Program-made: the position numbers and the translations under genes | Notes under the pieces: generated by a model | Databases searched by the model: none | What the model was told of the DNA's origin: nothing | Seen by the model: only the letters and a program-made list of their open reading frames with translations | NCBI GenBank assembly: GCA_015062385.1 | Contig: SUUT01000014.1 | Coordinates: 1 to 38,698, forward strand | Direction: 5' to 3' | Origin: Alphaproteobacteria bacterium | GTDB taxonomy: Bacteria; Pseudomonadota; Alphaproteobacteria; CAAHEQ01; UBA3637 | Length of the DNA stretch: 38,698 bases | In this document: positions 4,395 to 38,698 of the stretch, piece by piece | Layout of the letters: the number at the start of each line of letters is the position of its first letter | Position numbering within the stretch: position 1 is the stretch's first letter

Positions 4395-4760
4395 CTAGCC
4401 AACCCGTTTATTCATATTGATACATAATTCCGAAGCACTTTCTCGTACCTTTTTATAACGAGCGACTTGTTCTCTGAATAAGTCTTTAACATCTTGAGAT
4501 AAATCTGCCCCCCAAGTAATACAGACAACTCCATGCATATCAGCCTTTAAAATCGTTTGACCATATTTATCGGTTGCACTGGAAACCCCTCCGCCTGTTG
4601 TGCTTGATTTTATTCGAGATGCAATATCAAATATTTGATTTGCCCGATAACGATTCATTGCTAAAGAATATCCGCCAACACCTGCAACACTTAAAATGCC
4701 GATAATAGCTAATACACCTAACATCTCAACCATAGATCGACCCAATTCGTTTTTTTTCAT
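4395..4760 (-). CDS. Pilin-like secreted protein (short)
   Basis: The 121-residue protein has a 7-residue basic leader and then Gly-Arg-Ser-Met-Val-Glu, followed by a hydrophobic helix of about 20 residues (MLGVLAIIGILSVAGVGGY). Aligned with type IV pilins and type II pseudopilins, cleavage would follow the Gly and Glu would be at +5, which is conserved. Residue +1 is Arg instead of the usual Phe/Met. The C-terminal domain has only two Cys (VVCITW and ELCINM), a common disulfide pattern of minor pilins. GGAGG precedes the ATG. It is last in a minus-strand series after a second pilin-like gene. Confidence 0.75.
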   Translation of the reverse strand: MKKNELGRSMVEMLGVLAIIGILSVAGVGGYSLAMNRYRANQIFDIASRIKSSTTGGGVSSATDKYGQTILKADMHGVVCITWGADLSQDVKDLFREQVARYKKVRESASELCINMNKRVG

Positions 4761-4786
4761 TTTTTCCTCCGTAATTCAGTAAATAT

Positions 4787-5242
4787 TTAATTGTGTTGAA
4801 ACAGATATGTAAAACATCCTTGAACAGGTTTTGTGTCGCCTGTTTGGGCAGAACATGTAGCCCCGTCTGCAACAATATTGCATTTTGCTCCGGATAACCG
4901 GGCCGCATAGCGACAATGCCAAACATCATAAAAATGTAAATCTAATTCTACGCCGTTTTCTTTCATGTAGTTTGCAGTCGGATAAGCACCTAAATGGAGT
5001 GTATCTAACCCAAAGTCTTCTGCAGTCGGAAAATGGGGTTTTCCAAATGTGTCCGGATGTGCTTTTTTGTTAACATAAATATGTGCTGCATATTGATTCG
5101 CTTCAAATAATAATACATTTGCATAATACATTTCCATTGCCATCTTATAACCGGCAATTCCGGCAACAGATAAAATACCGATAACGGCTAACGTTGCAAG
5201 CATTTCAGTTAATGATCTTCCGGATTCATTTTTAATTTTCAC
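4787..5242 (-). CDS. Pilin-like secreted protein with four Cys
   Basis: This prepilin-like protein shows Gly-Arg-Ser-Leu-Thr-Glu followed by MLATLAVIGILSVAGIAGY. The soluble part carries four Cys (WHCRY, AKCN, ATCS, QGCF), so two disulfides are possible. I place the start at the GTG at 5242: GAGG stands eight bases upstream, and the leader then has 8 residues like those of its relatives. An ATG four codons further up (5254) is the alternative, but that start would place the ribosome-binding site inside the gene. No prepilin peptidase or assembly ATPase is in the window. Confidence 0.7.
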   Translation of the reverse strand: MKIKNESGRSLTEMLATLAVIGILSVAGIAGYKMAMEMYYANVLLFEANQYAAHIYVNKKAHPDTFGKPHFPTAEDFGLDTLHLGAYPTANYMKENGVELDLHFYDVWHCRYAARLSGAKCNIVADGATCSAQTGDTKPVQGCFTYLFQHN

Positions 5243-5331
5243 ACTTAACCTCATTTATTTTTACTATATTTAAAATATATGATTTATTTTTATTAAATAA
5301 GCAATAAAAAAATGAAAATATATCTAAATTT

Positions 5332-32040: not shown

Positions 32041-34188
32041 TTAATTATTATCATTTGATGTATCCGTTTCAGGTTCCGTTAAAATACATTCGCCAAAATC
32101 AAAATCTTCAATTGTGCCGGCCGGACATATGCATGTTGTCCCCGTTTCATCGGATGTTTTTCCGTTTGGACAAGCATAACATCTGATTTGTGTTGCTGAT
32201 GGAATGTATCCTGTTGGACAAACTTTACAGATTCCGTCTTGTGCAATTTCATTGGGTTTGCAAGCCACACAACTTTTTTTATCTTCTGAGGGAACGGTTC
32301 CGGCTGTACAGGCAACACAGCCACTATCTGTACTGTAATATCCATATGAACAACAATATTGACCAACACTTCCACCTGTTGAACAAGCACAAGTTGTTGT
32401 TATCTTAGTACCAAACTCACATCCTACTAATGTCGTTTGTTCATAAACACATCCTTTCCGAACATCACAAACCGAACCCGATGTAGGATCCTGAGCAATA
32501 TTAACACCATTACGGCAACTTTCCGGCGTATTTGCTTTCCATAGTCCCCACCAAAATTTATTACCATGCTTTGTTGTTGAATCGGCACAATATTGATTGG
32601 TTAATGCTTCACTATTACATTGTCCATTTAGAGCAACTTGTACATTCGAACATCCACTACACGAAGTTCCATCTCCGACATTAATCCCCGGGTAATAGTA
32701 TTTTCCTACTTCGCACCGAGGATAGCAACGCCAACCATATACACCATTATACCATGCCCAATATCCTGTACAAGCACAGAATCCGTTTTCATTTGCACGA
32801 CCCTCTCCATAACGATTTGTCCTCATGTGTAACGGTAAATCAGAATCACACCGATAACAATAAAAAGAACCATCGGCATTCTTTCTAAGTGTTGAATGAG
32901 CTCCACAATATGATTTTGTTGAAGGGTTCCAAACGTAAAAGGCGATATATCCATCTGCTCTGCCATTTTTTTGAATATCACCACAATACCAATTACTTGT
33001 ATCAATATGGGCACAATCAATTTCTCCCGCTGCATTACGTTTATTACACCACTCTACGGTTGTTTGTTCACATCTTTTACAACCACCACTTGAAGACGGA
33101 TAATAATCTTTTGTATTGTCACACTGACAAACCCAGCCCCCATCTATTTTATCGGCAACAGATTTGTATCCTTTGGATGTATCACATAAACATTGATTTT
33201 CACTATTCATATATCCGGTCAATCCGGTTTTAGGGGCATACGGACAAGATTCTTGACATACACCGTCAATATCATCTTGTCCTTCAGGGCACATACAAGT
33301 TTGTGTATTTCCTCCTTTGGGAATATATCGACAAACACATTCATTTTTTTCAATATCCCATGTTTTAAGACCGGAACAAATACATTTTCCATTTGAAAGA
33401 ACTTGACCTTTGGTTGTATCACAATCTTCTACAACACAATTTCGACAGGATTGTGTTTGCGAATCACAGCAAAAACCACCTGTATTATAGGTACAATCCG
33501 AATGAATTTTACAAATACAGTTTTCATTTTCAAATATTGGTTTGTCCGGTGGACAATAACAACCTGATGCACTCCATTCTCGGGGCGGTTCACATCGGGT
33601 GCAATCTTCCCCGTATTCAAACGAATGCCGACAAACACAGCCATATGTTCCGTCTTCCTTTTGTCGCCAGACTTGTTTATCCGGACATCGTTCTATATCC
33701 GGATTGTTCGGGTCATCATATCCGCTTTCCGCTCCCCCGGAACTGCTTCCCCCGATGACAATACTGTCAAACGTAAATTGCATATTCATTTCAGCTGTTG
33801 TACACGCTTCCGGTGTCATACCAATTCGCATAGAGTTGAATATGTCCCGTCTGTTTTGGAGTTTTTCACAAACCGAATCCGATACGTTAAACAAATCGAC
33901 AATATATTTCCCGTCACGATGTGTGACCATTGGTATCGTATCAGCCGGCTTATATCTTGATAACATATTTTCCACAAAACGCCGTACTTCTTTTACATGC
34001 GAAGAACGATTATTTTGTGTTGCCAATAATTTAGCCTTGCTGATAACATCCTGAATCTGTCCCGCTTGATACGATGAATACGCATATTGATAGCCTGCCA
34101 TTCCGCCGATTGATAAAATCCCGATAATTGCCAAAACTCCTAGGATTTCTACCATACTCCGTCCGTGTTCATTCAGTTTGATTCGCAT
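32041..34188 (-). CDS. Pilin-like N-terminus fused to a long Cys-rich (EGF-like) secreted body
   Basis: The 715-residue protein starts with a short leader MRIKLNEHG, then Arg-Ser-Met-Val-Glu, and the hydrophobic helix ILGVLAIIGILSIGGMAGY. Residues to about 165 resemble a minor pilin. After a GGSSSGG linker comes a body with dozens of Cys in EGF- or TNFR-like spacing (CxC, CxxC, CPPDKP, CPEGQ), from about 175 to 690. It ends in an acidic tail (TEPETDTSNDNN). Such a chain must be exported and disulfide-bonded, and would be shown at the surface. I use the ATG at 34188, with GAGGAGA upstream; a 10-residue extension from 34218 contains that site. The last 200 residues resemble the partial gene at 38116. 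Confidence 0.8.
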   Translation of the reverse strand: MRIKLNEHGRSMVEILGVLAIIGILSIGGMAGYQYAYSSYQAGQIQDVISKAKLLATQNNRSSHVKEVRRFVENMLSRYKPADTIPMVTHRDGKYIVDLFNVSDSVCEKLQNRRDIFNSMRIGMTPEACTTAEMNMQFTFDSIVIGGSSSGGAESGYDDPNNPDIERCPDKQVWRQKEDGTYGCVCRHSFEYGEDCTRCEPPREWSASGCYCPPDKPIFENENCICKIHSDCTYNTGGFCCDSQTQSCRNCVVEDCDTTKGQVLSNGKCICSGLKTWDIEKNECVCRYIPKGGNTQTCMCPEGQDDIDGVCQESCPYAPKTGLTGYMNSENQCLCDTSKGYKSVADKIDGGWVCQCDNTKDYYPSSSGGCKRCEQTTVEWCNKRNAAGEIDCAHIDTSNWYCGDIQKNGRADGYIAFYVWNPSTKSYCGAHSTLRKNADGSFYCYRCDSDLPLHMRTNRYGEGRANENGFCACTGYWAWYNGVYGWRCYPRCEVGKYYYPGINVGDGTSCSGCSNVQVALNGQCNSEALTNQYCADSTTKHGNKFWWGLWKANTPESCRNGVNIAQDPTSGSVCDVRKGCVYEQTTLVGCEFGTKITTTCACSTGGSVGQYCCSYGYYSTDSGCVACTAGTVPSEDKKSCVACKPNEIAQDGICKVCPTGYIPSATQIRCYACPNGKTSDETGTTCICPAGTIEDFDFGECILTEPETDTSNDNN

Positions 34189-34211
34189 AACATTCTCCTC
34201 ACGATTATAAA

Positions 34212-34389
34212 GTTGCATTTATAAAGTGAGTGTAATAAAAGGGACCTTTTTTTCCCGCTTCAAATCGGCAAAATCGGTTTCTAAAAAAAATGAAAGATTA
34301 TTGTTTGAGTTGAATGAGTTATCTAAAATTAAAAAAAATGCTAAAATATGAAAAAAAATGTTGCATTTATACGTCCCTTTTATTGCAAC
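34212..34389. repeat. Paired direct and inverted repeats in the divergent promoter region
   Basis: GTTGCATTTATA occurs at 34212-34223 and again at 34360-34371. AATAAAAGGGAC at 34234-34245 is the exact reverse complement of GTCCCTTTTATT at 34373-34384. GTTGCA at 34360 also pairs with TGCAAC ending at 34389. They frame the start region of the Cys-rich pilin-like gene and precede rnr. Confidence 0.6.
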
Positions 34390-34479
34390 TTATGATGTCC
34401 ATTTATATAAAAAAATTGCACCTTTTACAAAAGCATGTTAAAATGAAAAAAAGGGCCGGTTTGTAATAGGAGAGAGACT

Positions 34480-36633
34480 ATGACAAAAAAAGAGAAAAAA
34501 AACTTACCGTCTATGAAGGATTTGACCGCATTTTTAAAAACACAATCCGGAAGTTTTTCAAAAAGAGATATCGCTCGTCAATTTAATATAAAAGGGGATG
34601 ACAGAATTAAGCTTAAACAAATGTTGAAAGAATTAAGAGATTCCGGAACATTAGAACGGGATAAAAATGCCCGTTCGTATAAATTACAACTTTCCGGTCG
34701 TCTTCCGGAACATTGTCAGTTGGAAATTACCGGACAAGATTCGATGGGTGAATTATTGGCTCGTCCGCTGGAATGGCAATCGGATTTACCGACACCGCAA
34801 ATTTTAATTACCAAAAATAAAATCAATCCGCCGGCTGGTGTGGGGGATATTGTACAGGCAAAGGTTAGATTTATCGGTAATTTGTTATATGAAGGGACTG
34901 TTTTGAGACGTATTAGTGCCGGAGATAATAATATTGTCGGTATGTATTTTGATGGAAAAGTATATGCTGTTGATAGAAGATTATCTCGTCCGTTTTTATT
35001 ATTGGATGTTCCTCGTAATATACATAATAAAGATTTGGTTGTTATTGATATTCCGATGATTCGTTCTCGAGAACCGGTTGCTAAGTTTGTAAAAAAAATC
35101 GGTTCGGCAGATGAGCCATTTGCCGCAACACTTACAGCTATATTTATGCATCGATTGCCTGTTGCTTTTTCGGAACAGTCAGAAAAACAGGCACAACAAT
35201 TAAAAATTCCGGAAGCTGATAAAAGTAGGGTGGATTTAAGGTATATTCCGTTTGTTACAATAGATGGAGCTGATGCCCGAGATTTTGATGATGCAGTTTG
35301 GGCTGAACCGGATACGGATAAAAGCAATATGGGTGGATTTCATATAATGGTGGGAATTGCTGATGTTGCATGGTATGTTCAGTCCGGTTCTGCGTTAGAT
35401 AGAGATGCCTGGACACGGGGTAATTCTGTTTATTTTCCGGATCGTGTTATTCCTATGTTACCGTTTGAGTTATCAAATGGTGTTTGTTCGTTAAAACCGA
35501 ATGAACCACGTGCCGCATTGGTTTGTGAAGTTTGGATAGATAAAAACGGAAACAAAAAGAAACATACTTTTAAGCGGGCTCTTATTCAATCCGTTCAACG
35601 ATTGACTTATGAAGAAGTACAAAATGCATTGGATAAAAAACAACCTATTATCGGATTAGAAACAGAAATTGAAACATTAAAGAACGTTTACTTATTGCTA
35701 AAAAAACAGCGAGAAAAGCGAGGGGTTATTGAAATTGATGTGCCGGAACAAGAAGTTAAATTAAACAAAAACGGGGTTGTTACATCCATTCAGGCACGTC
35801 AACAAACAGAAAGTATGCAGTTAATTGAAGAATTGATGATTATGGCAAATGTTTCCGCAGCGGAAACATTGGAGGAAAAAGGAAAACCGACAATGTACCG
35901 TATTCATGATCGTCCCAGTTTGGAAAAAATACATACATTAAATAACTTTTTAAAATCAATGGGTCTGCAAGGAAAACACCCGATTACGGAACACTCGGAA
36001 GCTGTTGAATACAATAATATTCTTAAGAAAACGCAAGGGTCAGAGAAAGATTTTGCCATTAATGAATTTATGTTGCGTTCTCAATCACAAGCACAATATT
36101 CACCGGAAAATATTGGACATTTTGGATTGGCATTAATGCGATATGCTCATTTTACGTCTCCTATTCGTCGTTATGCCGATATTATGGTTCATCGGGCCAT
36201 TATTAGTGCGTTAAAATTAGGAGAGGGTGGATTAACCAAAGAAGAAGAGGCAACTTTTTCCCAAACGGCTCAACATATATCTTATACAGAACGACAAGCG
36301 GCTTCTGCCGAACAAGATTCGATCGATCGATATATTGCCGGATATTTGAAAAATAAAGTGAATGAAAAATTTATCGGTCGTATTTCTTCTATTACTTCTT
36401 TTGGACTTTTTGTTCGGTTGATGTCTTTTGGTATTGATGGTTTTGTTCCTTTTAAAACATTGTTCGGTGATTATTATGAATATGATGATGAAAAACAAAT
36501 TTTAATCGGTCGTTCCCGTGGAAAAATTTATCGGGTAGGCGATAAATTAATGGTTGTTTTAAAAGAATGCAATCCGTTAACCGGTAGTTTAACTTTACAG
36601 CCGTTGGAAAAAACAGATAAAAATTACAAATAA
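34480..36633 (+). CDS. rnr: Ribonuclease R
   Basis: The 717-residue 3'-to-5' exoribonuclease of the RNB family has an N-terminal helix-turn-helix-like part (16-60), cold-shock-type OB domains, the RNB catalytic core with DGADARDFDDAVW (about 263-275; metal-binding Asp residues) and HFTSPIRRYAD, and a C-terminal S1 domain (FIGRISSITSFGLFVRLMSFGIDGFV). It degrades structured RNA. The ATG is preceded by GGAGAG. It converges with the phoB-like gene, with 13 bases between the stops. Confidence 0.93.
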   Translation: MTKKEKKNLPSMKDLTAFLKTQSGSFSKRDIARQFNIKGDDRIKLKQMLKELRDSGTLERDKNARSYKLQLSGRLPEHCQLEITGQDSMGELLARPLEWQSDLPTPQILITKNKINPPAGVGDIVQAKVRFIGNLLYEGTVLRRISAGDNNIVGMYFDGKVYAVDRRLSRPFLLLDVPRNIHNKDLVVIDIPMIRSREPVAKFVKKIGSADEPFAATLTAIFMHRLPVAFSEQSEKQAQQLKIPEADKSRVDLRYIPFVTIDGADARDFDDAVWAEPDTDKSNMGGFHIMVGIADVAWYVQSGSALDRDAWTRGNSVYFPDRVIPMLPFELSNGVCSLKPNEPRAALVCEVWIDKNGNKKKHTFKRALIQSVQRLTYEEVQNALDKKQPIIGLETEIETLKNVYLLLKKQREKRGVIEIDVPEQEVKLNKNGVVTSIQARQQTESMQLIEELMIMANVSAAETLEEKGKPTMYRIHDRPSLEKIHTLNNFLKSMGLQGKHPITEHSEAVEYNNILKKTQGSEKDFAINEFMLRSQSQAQYSPENIGHFGLALMRYAHFTSPIRRYADIMVHRAIISALKLGEGGLTKEEEATFSQTAQHISYTERQAASAEQDSIDRYIAGYLKNKVNEKFIGRISSITSFGLFVRLMSFGIDGFVPFKTLFGDYYEYDDEKQILIGRSRGKIYRVGDKLMVVLKECNPLTGSLTLQPLEKTDKNYK

Positions 36634-36646
36634 GTGAGAGTTGTTT

Positions 36647-37366
36647 TTATTCTGTGTCTTCAATTATCTCATCTGTTTCCGAATCGCTGAAATCAATAGC
36701 GTAACCGGCAGAACGAACTGTTCGGATAACATCTTTTTCTCCGGCATCATTTAATGCACGTCTTAATCGGCGAATATGGACATCAACTGTTCTTAATTCC
36801 ACATGAATAGAACCACCCCATACAGATTTTAATAAGGATTCTCTGGATAAAACGTGTCCGGGTTTTTCCATTAAAAATTGCAATAGTCTAAATTCTGTTG
36901 GACCTAAATGTACGTGGCGTTCTCCACGCATAACTCTTCTTTTGGAGAAATCAATAAAAATATCTCCGTATGATAGATTTTCTTGTGCCTGAACAGGTAT
37001 TGCCCGTCGTAATAAGGCAATGATACGTGCCATTAACTCGGGAACGGAAAACGGTTTTGTTACGTAATCATCAGCACCAAATGATAACCCTTTTACTTTA
37101 TCTGCTTCTTCGCTACGTGCCGTTAACATAATGATTGGAGTGTTTCTTAATTCATAAGTTTTGCGAATTTCCCGACACAAATCAATTCCCGGAATGTTGG
37201 GTAACATCCAATCTAACAAAATTAAATCCGGTTTTTCGGATAACGCCGTGGGCATAACATCTTTACCATCCATTGATACAACCGTTTCATATCCTTGTTT
37301 TTCCAAATTGTATTTTAACAAGGTAACTAATCCGACTTCATCTTCTACAATCATTATTTTTGTCAT
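36647..37366 (-). CDS. phoB: OmpR/PhoB-family response regulator
   Basis: The 239-residue regulator has a receiver domain with the acidic pair E8/D9, phosphoacceptor D52 (LDWMLP), TAR and KPF Lys near 103, and a C-terminal winged helix (VHLGPTEFRLLQFLMEKPG, VDVHIRRLRRAL). Similarity to PhoB is strong, so phosphate regulation is likely, but no histidine kinase or pst gene is present in the window. Its ATG directly follows the rpe stop, and its ribosome-binding site (AGAGGGA) is in the end of rpe, so it is coupled to rpe. Confidence 0.85.
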   Translation of the reverse strand: MTKIMIVEDEVGLVTLLKYNLEKQGYETVVSMDGKDVMPTALSEKPDLILLDWMLPNIPGIDLCREIRKTYELRNTPIIMLTARSEEADKVKGLSFGADDYVTKPFSVPELMARIIALLRRAIPVQAQENLSYGDIFIDFSKRRVMRGERHVHLGPTEFRLLQFLMEKPGHVLSRESLLKSVWGGSIHVELRTVDVHIRRLRRALNDAGEKDVIRTVRSAGYAIDFSDSETDEIIEDTE

Positions 37367-38008
37367 TTATCCCTCTTTTAATTGTTGAATCTGTATTGCA
37401 TATGGTTTCTTTTTAAAAATATAACTGCCGGCAACCAAGATATCTGCTCCGGCGAGTTTGCAGGCCGGTGCCGTAATCTGATTAATGCCTCCGTCAACTG
37501 AAACCAAAACGTGTTTTTTGCCGATTAATTCTTTAACAGCAACGATTTTTTCCAGTGCTTTTTCCTGAAATGTTTGTCCGCCAAAACCCGGTTCAACAGA
37601 CATGATTAAAACCAAATCAATTAACGGAATAAATGGTTCTAATTTAGCAACTGGTGTGTTTGGACAAATAGATAATCCGACTTTTTTCCCCTCTTTTTTG
37701 ATAAGCGAAATAAGATATTCTATATTTGATTGTGCTTCTATATGTACGGTAATATAATCAGCACCGGCAGTTGCAAACGGAGTAATAAACTTTTCCGGAT
37801 TAGTCATCATTAAATGTACATCAAACGTTTTTTTTGTATAGGAGCGGATACTTTTTACAACAATGGGACCAAATGTTAAATTGGGTACAAAATGTCCATC
37901 CATAACATCAATATGTATCCAGTCAGCACCGGCAGAATCAAGTGCTTTGACATCACACCCTAAACGGGCAAAATCAGCAGATAATATGCTTGGGGCAATT
38001 TTAACCAT
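37367..38008 (-). CDS. rpe: Ribulose-phosphate 3-epimerase
   Basis: The 213-residue TIM-barrel enzyme interconverts ribulose 5-phosphate and xylulose 5-phosphate. Motifs are ISPSILSADFARL-like start, HIDVMDGHFVPNLTFG, DVHLMMTNPE, SVEPGFGGQTF and VDGGIN, with all metal ligands (His, Asp, His, Asp) visible. Length is slightly short for the family. It is first in a two-gene unit with the response regulator. Confidence 0.94.
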   Translation of the reverse strand: MVKIAPSILSADFARLGCDVKALDSAGADWIHIDVMDGHFVPNLTFGPIVVKSIRSYTKKTFDVHLMMTNPEKFITPFATAGADYITVHIEAQSNIEYLISLIKKEGKKVGLSICPNTPVAKLEPFIPLIDLVLIMSVEPGFGGQTFQEKALEKIVAVKELIGKKHVLVSVDGGINQITAPACKLAGADILVAGSYIFKKKPYAIQIQQLKEG

Positions 38009-38050
38009 TTTCTTTTCCCTAATAATAGTTTATTTTCTAATTTTATCAGG

Positions 38051-38079
38051 AAAAAAGGCTTAAAATCAAGCATTTTTTT
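38051..38079. terminator. Weak bidirectional terminator between rpe and the Cys-rich gene
   Basis: GGCTT and AAGC (38057-38061/38068-38071) form a short stem flanked by an A run (38051-38056) and a T run. It would end transcription from the Cys-rich gene on the minus strand. Confidence 0.45.
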
Positions 38080-38115
38080 ATAGAAATATCACGCAGTTGA
38101 CAAATAACTTTGTTT

Positions 38116-38698
38116 TTAATTATTCGATTCATCAATATTTTCCGGAATTTTATCCTCCAACAAAATACAATTTCCGTTTACCGGATCTTCAAAAGATATT
38201 TCCGGCGGACATTCGCATGTGTTTGTAATCATATTAAATATTTTATTTGAATCAATACAAACACTACACGTTAAACCATCTTCATCTGTTGTTCTATCTG
38301 CCGGACAAGCCAAACACCGATTTTGCTGACTGCTCGGATAATATCCGGCATCACATTTAATACATTTACCATCTTTTGTAATTGTATTTTTCGGACAGGC
38401 TTCGCAATCAGTACGAGTTGAATTAGGCACTTGACCCGCAGGACAAGAAGCACAGCCCGTTGATGTCGGATAAGTAGTGGCGGAACAACAAATACCTGTT
38501 TTATCTCCACTAGCACATTCACAATCACTTGTTATGGTGACTCCTATCGTACATGCAGGCAAAGCAAGATTAAAAGGAACACAACCATATTTATAAGAAC
38601 AAACACCGTTTGATGTTTGATATGCCCGTCCGGATTTACCATCTGTCGCATTTGGATGACAAGATATTGGTGTTTTATCTAACCAAGTAGTATATTGA
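38116..38698 (-). CDS. Cys-rich secreted protein, C-terminal part (5' end beyond the window)
   Basis: The frame is open from the right edge to the TAA at 38116, giving about 193 residues. It holds about 24 Cys in the same spacing as the end of the 715-residue protein: CECASG then CC, then GCASCPAGQVP, CEACPKN, CIKCDAGYYPSS, CLACPADRTTDEDG, and the ending NCILLED...DESNN (ECILTEP...SNDNN in the other). The two are paralogous. The N-terminus is not in the window, so a pilin-like start is expected but not shown. There is no internal ATG near 38562; that apparent start is a TTG inside the frame. Confidence 0.8.
   Translation of the reverse strand, partial: QYTTWLDKTPISCHPNATDGKSGRAYQTSNGVCSYKYGCVPFNLALPACTIGVTITSDCECASGDKTGICCSATTYPTSTGCASCPAGQVPNSTRTDCEACPKNTITKDGKCIKCDAGYYPSSQQNRCLACPADRTTDEDGLTCSVCIDSNKIFNMITNTCECPPEISFEDPVNGNCILLEDKIPENIDESNN

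Follow-up and report, generated by a model that had tools for sequence, protein, structure and literature searches.

The locus considered here raises the question of how a bacterium uses, and when it expresses, a gene in which a prepilin-type helix is joined to a long cysteine-rich chain. It lies towards the right-hand end of the window (the whole stretch of DNA that was analysed: 38,698 nucleotides, positions 1 to 38,698 of contig SUUT01000014.1 in the alphaproteobacterial assembly GCA_015062385.1), where gene A and the incomplete gene B are read on the minus strand. In the reading that we consider probable from the sequence, gene A is one member of a phase-variable repertoire of about 100 type IVb pilin-like surface proteins, mostly large and Cys-rich, displayed on one pilus, and its putative switch is an invertible promoter segment directly upstream. 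The two genes are laid out as follows:

32041..34188, minus strand: gene A, a prepilin-type Cys-rich protein of 715 residues with 64 Cys (open reading frame, translation and ten aligned full-length paralogs)
34162..34188, minus strand: prepilin leader MRIKLNEHG, with predicted cleavage before RSMVE (sequence)
33751..34161, minus strand: mature pilin module, residues 10–146, helix and small domain in which Cys107 and Cys129 are invariant (alignments)
33151..33750, minus strand: Gly/Ser linker and conserved Cys-rich stretch, approximately residues 147–346 (near-identical across paralogs)
32419..33150, minus strand: hypervariable central Cys-rich region, approximately residues 347–590 (nucleotide distances)
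32044..32418, minus strand: C-terminal Cys-rich module and acidic tail, common to gene B (paralog alignments)
34193..34199, minus strand: ribosome-binding site of gene A, AGGAGAA (sequence)
38116..38697, minus strand: gene B, the 193-residue 3′ part of a gene-A paralog whose 5′ end lies beyond the contig (alignments)

The N-terminus of gene A, MRIKLNEHGRSMVEILGVLAIIGILSIGGMAGYQYA, reads as a class III prepilin leader followed by a helix: a short leader ends in Gly, Glu stands five residues on, and a hydrophobic helix follows (cleavage motif MRIKLNEHG/RSMVEILGVLAIIGILSIGGMAGYQYA, also given as MRIKLNEHG/RSMVEILGVLAIIGILSIGG). The start codon is the ATG at 34188, with a second in-frame ATG at 34218. 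In an alignment of 65 family proteins, the leader and helix positions G9, S11, M12, E14, G17, and L19 were invariant. The PF07963 model gave gene A a score of only 11 bits, no Pfam domain, EGF models included, was found above its cut-off in gene A, nothing in PHROGs matched it, and no relative was detected in the viral contigs searched. Gene B aligns with residues 559–698 of gene A at 42% identity (expect value (E) 1.6e-23), and the paralogy is therefore not due to chance; a full-length paralog at C42:12633 is 88% identical to gene B over 190 residues. Several contigs end inside conserved parts that paralogs share, which accounts for the truncation of gene B. Its own start, beyond the contig, is very likely a pilin helix, since all ten full-length paralogs with the same C-terminus begin with one.

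The repertoire was delimited by searching the source genome with residues 1–60 of gene A as query. That genome comprises 1.81 Mb in 45 contigs and is 99.08% complete, with 0.51% contamination. The search returned 107 matches at E≤10, 103 of them at E≤1e-6, and reading of the loci yielded 102 open reading frames with a prepilin motif. One of these, in which the motif was false and lay inside a recombinase, was discarded; 101 remained, some of them clipped by contig or stretch ends. Most encode 350–1200 residues with 16–122 Cys; the largest (L106, G000:C12:46569) has 3845 residues and 197 Cys, and matches a right-handed beta-helix model. Within the family, each of the 33 other genomes sampled carries 3–90 copies, and copies were found in 2/24 genomes from other families of the class. 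The repertoire belongs to an uncultured gut alphaproteobacterial lineage, possibly the one called RF32/CAG-239 in GTDB. Elsewhere in the window, two small prepilin-type genes (4395–5254, minus strand; 121 and 155 residues) stand without the invertible module and are possible ordinary pilins.

An earlier note on this DNA had described both open reading frames, to which the minus strand is now added, as paralogous Cys-rich proteins, the first with a prepilin-type helix and a long Cys-rich tail. That description is borne out by the reading frame, the invariant motif and the alignment of the two genes, and the wider claim of a large family of disulfide-rich surface proteins with pilin N-termini agrees with the repertoire and the machinery described below. 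The size of the family, told from two genes, was understated, the number being about 101, and the upstream inverted-repeat promoter switch was missed. The label "EGF-like" does not hold for gene A by Pfam and is replaced in gene B by Ephrin_rec_like, which is passed narrowly (23.9 bits, cut-off 23.1); it is apt elsewhere in the family, 12/65 members matching Teneurin EGF.

A conserved, sharply delimited block of about 145 bp precedes the paralogs and is bounded by AAAAGG(G/T/A)AC...GT(C/A/T)CCTTTT. Before gene A it comprises:

34237..34381, minus strand: putative invertible promoter segment with 9-bp arms and a 127-bp interior, orientation F (pattern match and orientation census)
34237..34245, minus strand: proximal inverted-repeat arm GTCCCTTTT (coordinates read)
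34373..34381, minus strand: distal inverted-repeat arm AAAAGGGAC (coordinates read)

The exact pattern was matched 87 times in the genome, and the reversed control pattern was never matched; the segment before gene A is the only match in the window, where shuffled sequences give an expectation of 0.00. The segment precedes 90 of the 101 prepilin-type genes. The only large genes without it encode 982 and 1147 residues and have less than 70 bp upstream in the stretch read; the others that lack it encode small pilins or a fragment that is co-transcribed. In 82 of the 90 genes the arm-to-arm distance is 136 bp; it is 135 bp in four, and 159–160 bp in four small-pilin genes. When the orientation of the interior was scored, 84 genes were found in state F and six in the opposite state R, and one of three small-pilin operons with a switch was in R. 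As in an inverton, inverted repeats flank an upstream promoter element, and both orientations occur across paralogs. A divergent neighbouring gene explained the R segment in none of the four testable cases. Two modules precede genes of other kinds: one in R, hence ON by the reading given below, stands before a non-pilin gene of 425 residues with a weak DUF3150 match (L205, G000:C33:29302-29446), and one in F stands before a thymidylate-kinase gene (L193, G000:C3:34639-34783), a nucleotide kinase that may also be phase-variable.

The two promoter elements before gene A were located by promoter comparison:

34229..34234, minus strand: TACACT, the fixed −10 hexamer, immediately beyond the proximal arm
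34361..34366, plus strand: −35 hexamer TTGCAT, now facing away from gene A

A −10-like hexamer (TACACT, TATAAT, TATACT, and similar) always lies directly outside the gene-side arm. The −35-like hexamer, TTGCAT or TTGCAA, is found in F at the far end of the interior, pointing away from the gene; in R the arrangement TTGCAW-17 bp-TA(T/C)A(A/C/G)T is formed, and the reversal alters the −35 only. R scored above F in all 74 of 74 modules compared, each of which has TTGCAT or TTGCAA and a 17-bp spacer. Because the −35 comes to stand at exactly 17 bp from the −10 in R only, R is predicted to be ON and F to be OFF, and gene A is predicted to be OFF in this assembly. A genome of another genus (G019) has, at the corresponding position, a repeat-bounded segment of comparable length, whose 32-bp arms differ in sequence and whose complete promoter faces away from the gene. 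In a genome of the same genus, a single repeat-bounded segment with TTGACA-17-TATTAT lies between two divergent pilin genes (L183, G003:C46); its flipping would express one gene or the other, as an either/or switch. Segments in G003 that are identical at 135/135 positions when flipped were at first taken for an inversion pair, a candidate that was rejected when the flanks revealed one segment between divergent genes.

The genome encodes one complete type IVb pilus system. An operon on contig C8 contains genes for a TcpQ-domain protein, a PilN-type secretin of the PilN/BfpB kind (TIGR02520, E 1.2e-78), PilO, PilP, an assembly ATPase (T2SSE), and a T2SSF protein. The only prepilin peptidase gene is located on C3, adjoining small pilins, and two DsbA-family genes are present. 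The prepilin peptidase and the assembly ATPase that the earlier note had proposed to look for are both found, with a type IVb pilus operon in addition, and the genome is not without a prepilin-processing system. The note had remarked that prepilin-type proteins normally carry small globular domains; large minor pilins, too, have been described in type IVb systems (PilV, CofB, TcpB). The pilin domain matched the toxin-coregulated pilin (E 0.29) and the CFA/III pilin (E 0.73) only weakly, and one sibling protein passes PF08805 (PilS) weakly, with 22.3 bits at a cut-off of 22. Elsewhere in the genome, a VirB11-like ATPase gene adjoins the gene for a protein of 2190 residues (L128, G000:C7:10900-18500), possibly as part of a separate type IV secretion-like system.

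In the mechanism proposed, each member, which consists of a class III prepilin leader, a small pilin domain, and a long disulfide-rich display region in that order, would be processed by the single prepilin peptidase, fold with the help of periplasmic DsbA, and join the one type IVb pilus as a minor subunit of the PilV/CofB/TcpB-like kind, with its variable region binding targets. The −10 would stay with the gene and the −35 would move with the segment of about 145 bp, off in F and on in R. A serine invertase of the Mpi family would most likely flip the segments, and each cell would display a few of approximately 90 variants. The sequence itself shows the repertoire, the pilus machinery, the module with its two orientations across paralogs, and the layout of the promoter; active inversion we infer.

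That such an enzyme flips the segments is plausible from the sequence. A gene adjoining dnaA (C26:78020-78769) encodes a match to the Mpi-family serine invertase model NF009949 (E 4.7e-81), and Mpi-type relatives are encoded in 27/34 genomes of the family (this one included) versus 0/24 others. Serine invertase sites consist of half-sites around a 2-bp core, and the gene-side site can be written in that form as AAAAAAAGG-NA-CCTTTTTTT. In sibling genomes the arms are TTAAACGTAC...GTACGTTTA, similar to the Mpi-type repeats published as ARACGTTCGTN and GTTCGTTTAA (PMC8375218). Other candidates are FimB-like tyrosine recombinases of 198 and 193 residues encoded on C12, which are fitted better by Xer models and weakly or not at all by FimB models; they may be less suited than the serine enzyme to a site of half-sites around a 2-bp core. 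A second Mpi-type invertase gene, N-terminally truncated, was found at G000:C42:49179-49694.

Several observations weigh against the reading of gene A as one of many switched pilus subunits. The two orientations were seen across paralogs and at no single locus, one assembly having been analysed. TTGCAW resembles TTGACA only moderately, and in the sibling genomes G004, G006, and G007 TTGCA stands at both ends of the segment, so that ON and OFF cannot be told apart there in this way. The NF009949 score of the candidate invertase is 271.3 bits at a cut-off of 272, and seven pilin-bearing genomes of the family, one of them with 50 pilins, have no Mpi-type match. The pilin domain has no significant relative among solved structures (best E 0.029), and its predicted structure, computed from the window sequence alone, reached a predicted local distance difference test (pLDDT) score of 51 and did not enter a fold search. 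The pilin genes are scattered over approximately 30 contigs and do not lie within the pil operon, unlike the minor pilin genes of the CofB, TcpB, and PilV kind.

This last point, together with tails of up to 3845 residues, which far exceed known minor pilins and might not pass the secretin in a fibre, also suits the best surviving alternative. In it, the pilin N-terminus serves as an inner-membrane anchor or a pseudopilin-type export signal, and the Cys-rich chains are not pilus subunits, although they are still phase-variable. We regard this as unlikely, the leader and helix motif being invariant, the genome having a complete type IVb apparatus together with one prepilin peptidase, and small pilins of the same type having the same kind of switch.

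A view close to that of the earlier note is improbable: that large Cys-rich fibres or adhesins are expressed constitutively, with no switching, and serve contact with a eukaryotic host. A gut origin of the nearest named relative, the metagenome-assembled genome RGIG7750 (water buffalo rectum), and the EGF and ephrin-receptor-like domains would agree with it; 84 of the 90 genes, however, are without a recognisable −35 in the assembled orientation.

The segment might instead be a fixed palindromic site bound by a regulator, with the six R copies as old rearrangements and no switching. The central base of the arms, which agrees between the two arms in 90/90 genes (G/G 65, T/T 23, A/A 2), speaks against this: independent draws would give agreement in approximately 59% of cases per gene, and a match throughout is expected if recombination exchanges the arms. 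The interior of L133, which is in R, matches that of its close neighbouring paralog L131, which is in F, at 126/127 bases when flipped; the same mixture of states was found in G008 (19 F and 3 R, counting modules directly before a pilin); and reversal alters the −35 alone. Constant length and position would also fit a regulatory site, as would the observation of both states across paralogs only, yet we hold this explanation to be still less probable than that of constitutive fibres. Hardly credible is a miniature transposable element inserted upstream in either orientation, which the many copies and the short inverted repeats at their ends recall, whereas nearly all copies stand at a fixed distance from a pilin start with conserved flanking bases on both sides, only two precede other genes (both of them again beside a gene start that has a −10), and copies at random positions are largely absent.

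With the phase-variable repertoire retained as the preferred reading, the origin of its diversity can be considered. In ten full-length paralogs of gene A, a near-identical N-terminus (columns 1–330) and a conserved C-terminus enclose a hypervariable middle, the mean nucleotide distances being 0.100, 0.249, and 0.465 for the N-terminal, C-terminal, and middle parts; the nonsynonymous proportion climbs from approximately 0.03 to approximately 0.5. The correlation between N-terminal and middle distances is weak (Mantel rho 0.40, p 0.07), which suggests, without proof, that exchange between paralogs lies behind the hypervariable middle. The genes seen are each complete, having a 3′ end of their own. 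In the pair L134/L020, the distal flank and the 127-bp interior are near-identical, and the sequences diverge abruptly past the gene-side arm, a pattern for which exchange between loci at the invertase site is a possible explanation. A bolder extension, which we put forward tentatively and think somewhat more apt to fail than to hold, is antigenic variation on a scale like that of the surface-protein repertoires of protists: about 90 promoters served by one invertase would place few adhesins on a single pilus, and exchange between paralogs, possibly at the invertase sites themselves, would renew the central domains.

In type IV pili, the minor pilins usually number one or a few. If the proposal is true, the repertoire takes the phase variation of pilus adhesins to a new scale, in a gut lineage that is common but has not been cultured, and switching would let cells keep changing the surface proteins they display. 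Because the design with a fixed −10 and a mobile −35 makes ON and OFF readable from sequence, existing metagenome reads could reveal, animal by animal, which adhesins are on, and whether they respond to diet, phage, or host. Invertons, Mpi, and variable PilV are already known. No inverton set devoted to a pilin-adhesin family was found in the literature searched, and the open full-text literature (subscription papers lying outside the search) contained no prior report linking this lineage or family to both pilins and inversion; nor was a set of about 90 near-identical invertible split promoters devoted to a giant Cys-rich type IVb pilin family found there.

On the analogy of PilV variants and CofB/TcpB, a phase-variable set of pilus adhesins is the most likely role, with host mucin or host cells, other bacteria, and protists as possible targets. 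The likeness is one of "works like" and not of membership, the homology not being significant, and location at the pilus tip and adhesion are inferred. C-terminal variants of PilV are pilus adhesins that select target cells, and PilV with its shufflon on the I-complex plasmids R64 and TP114 is likewise a type IVb system with a large minor pilin, a constant N-terminus and variable C-terminus, and DNA inversion (PMC9045228). In the PilV shufflon, the 3′ end of one gene is swapped among up to eight cassettes by a tyrosine shufflase, whereas here approximately 90 separate, complete genes each have their own invertible promoter, with a candidate serine invertase. CofB and TcpB, which models place as trimers at the tip of the pilus (PMC7248040), are likewise large pilin-like proteins associated with type IVb machinery; they occur as a single copy per system, whereas here there are many genes, long disulfide-rich tails, and a pilin domain without a significant match. 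Invertons found with PhaseFinder in gut bacteria also include many invertible elements with common repeats, up to 181 per genome and in repeat groups of up to 72 (PMC11892184). Closest in its control is Mpi of Bacteroides fragilis, which inverts 13 regions (PMC4747536): there, as predicted here, one master serine invertase serves many distant promoters through a common repeat, and the sibling genomes share a similar repeat sequence with that system. Unlike in the Mpi system, the 87 exact modules described here stand nearly all before one protein family, and only the −35 moves.

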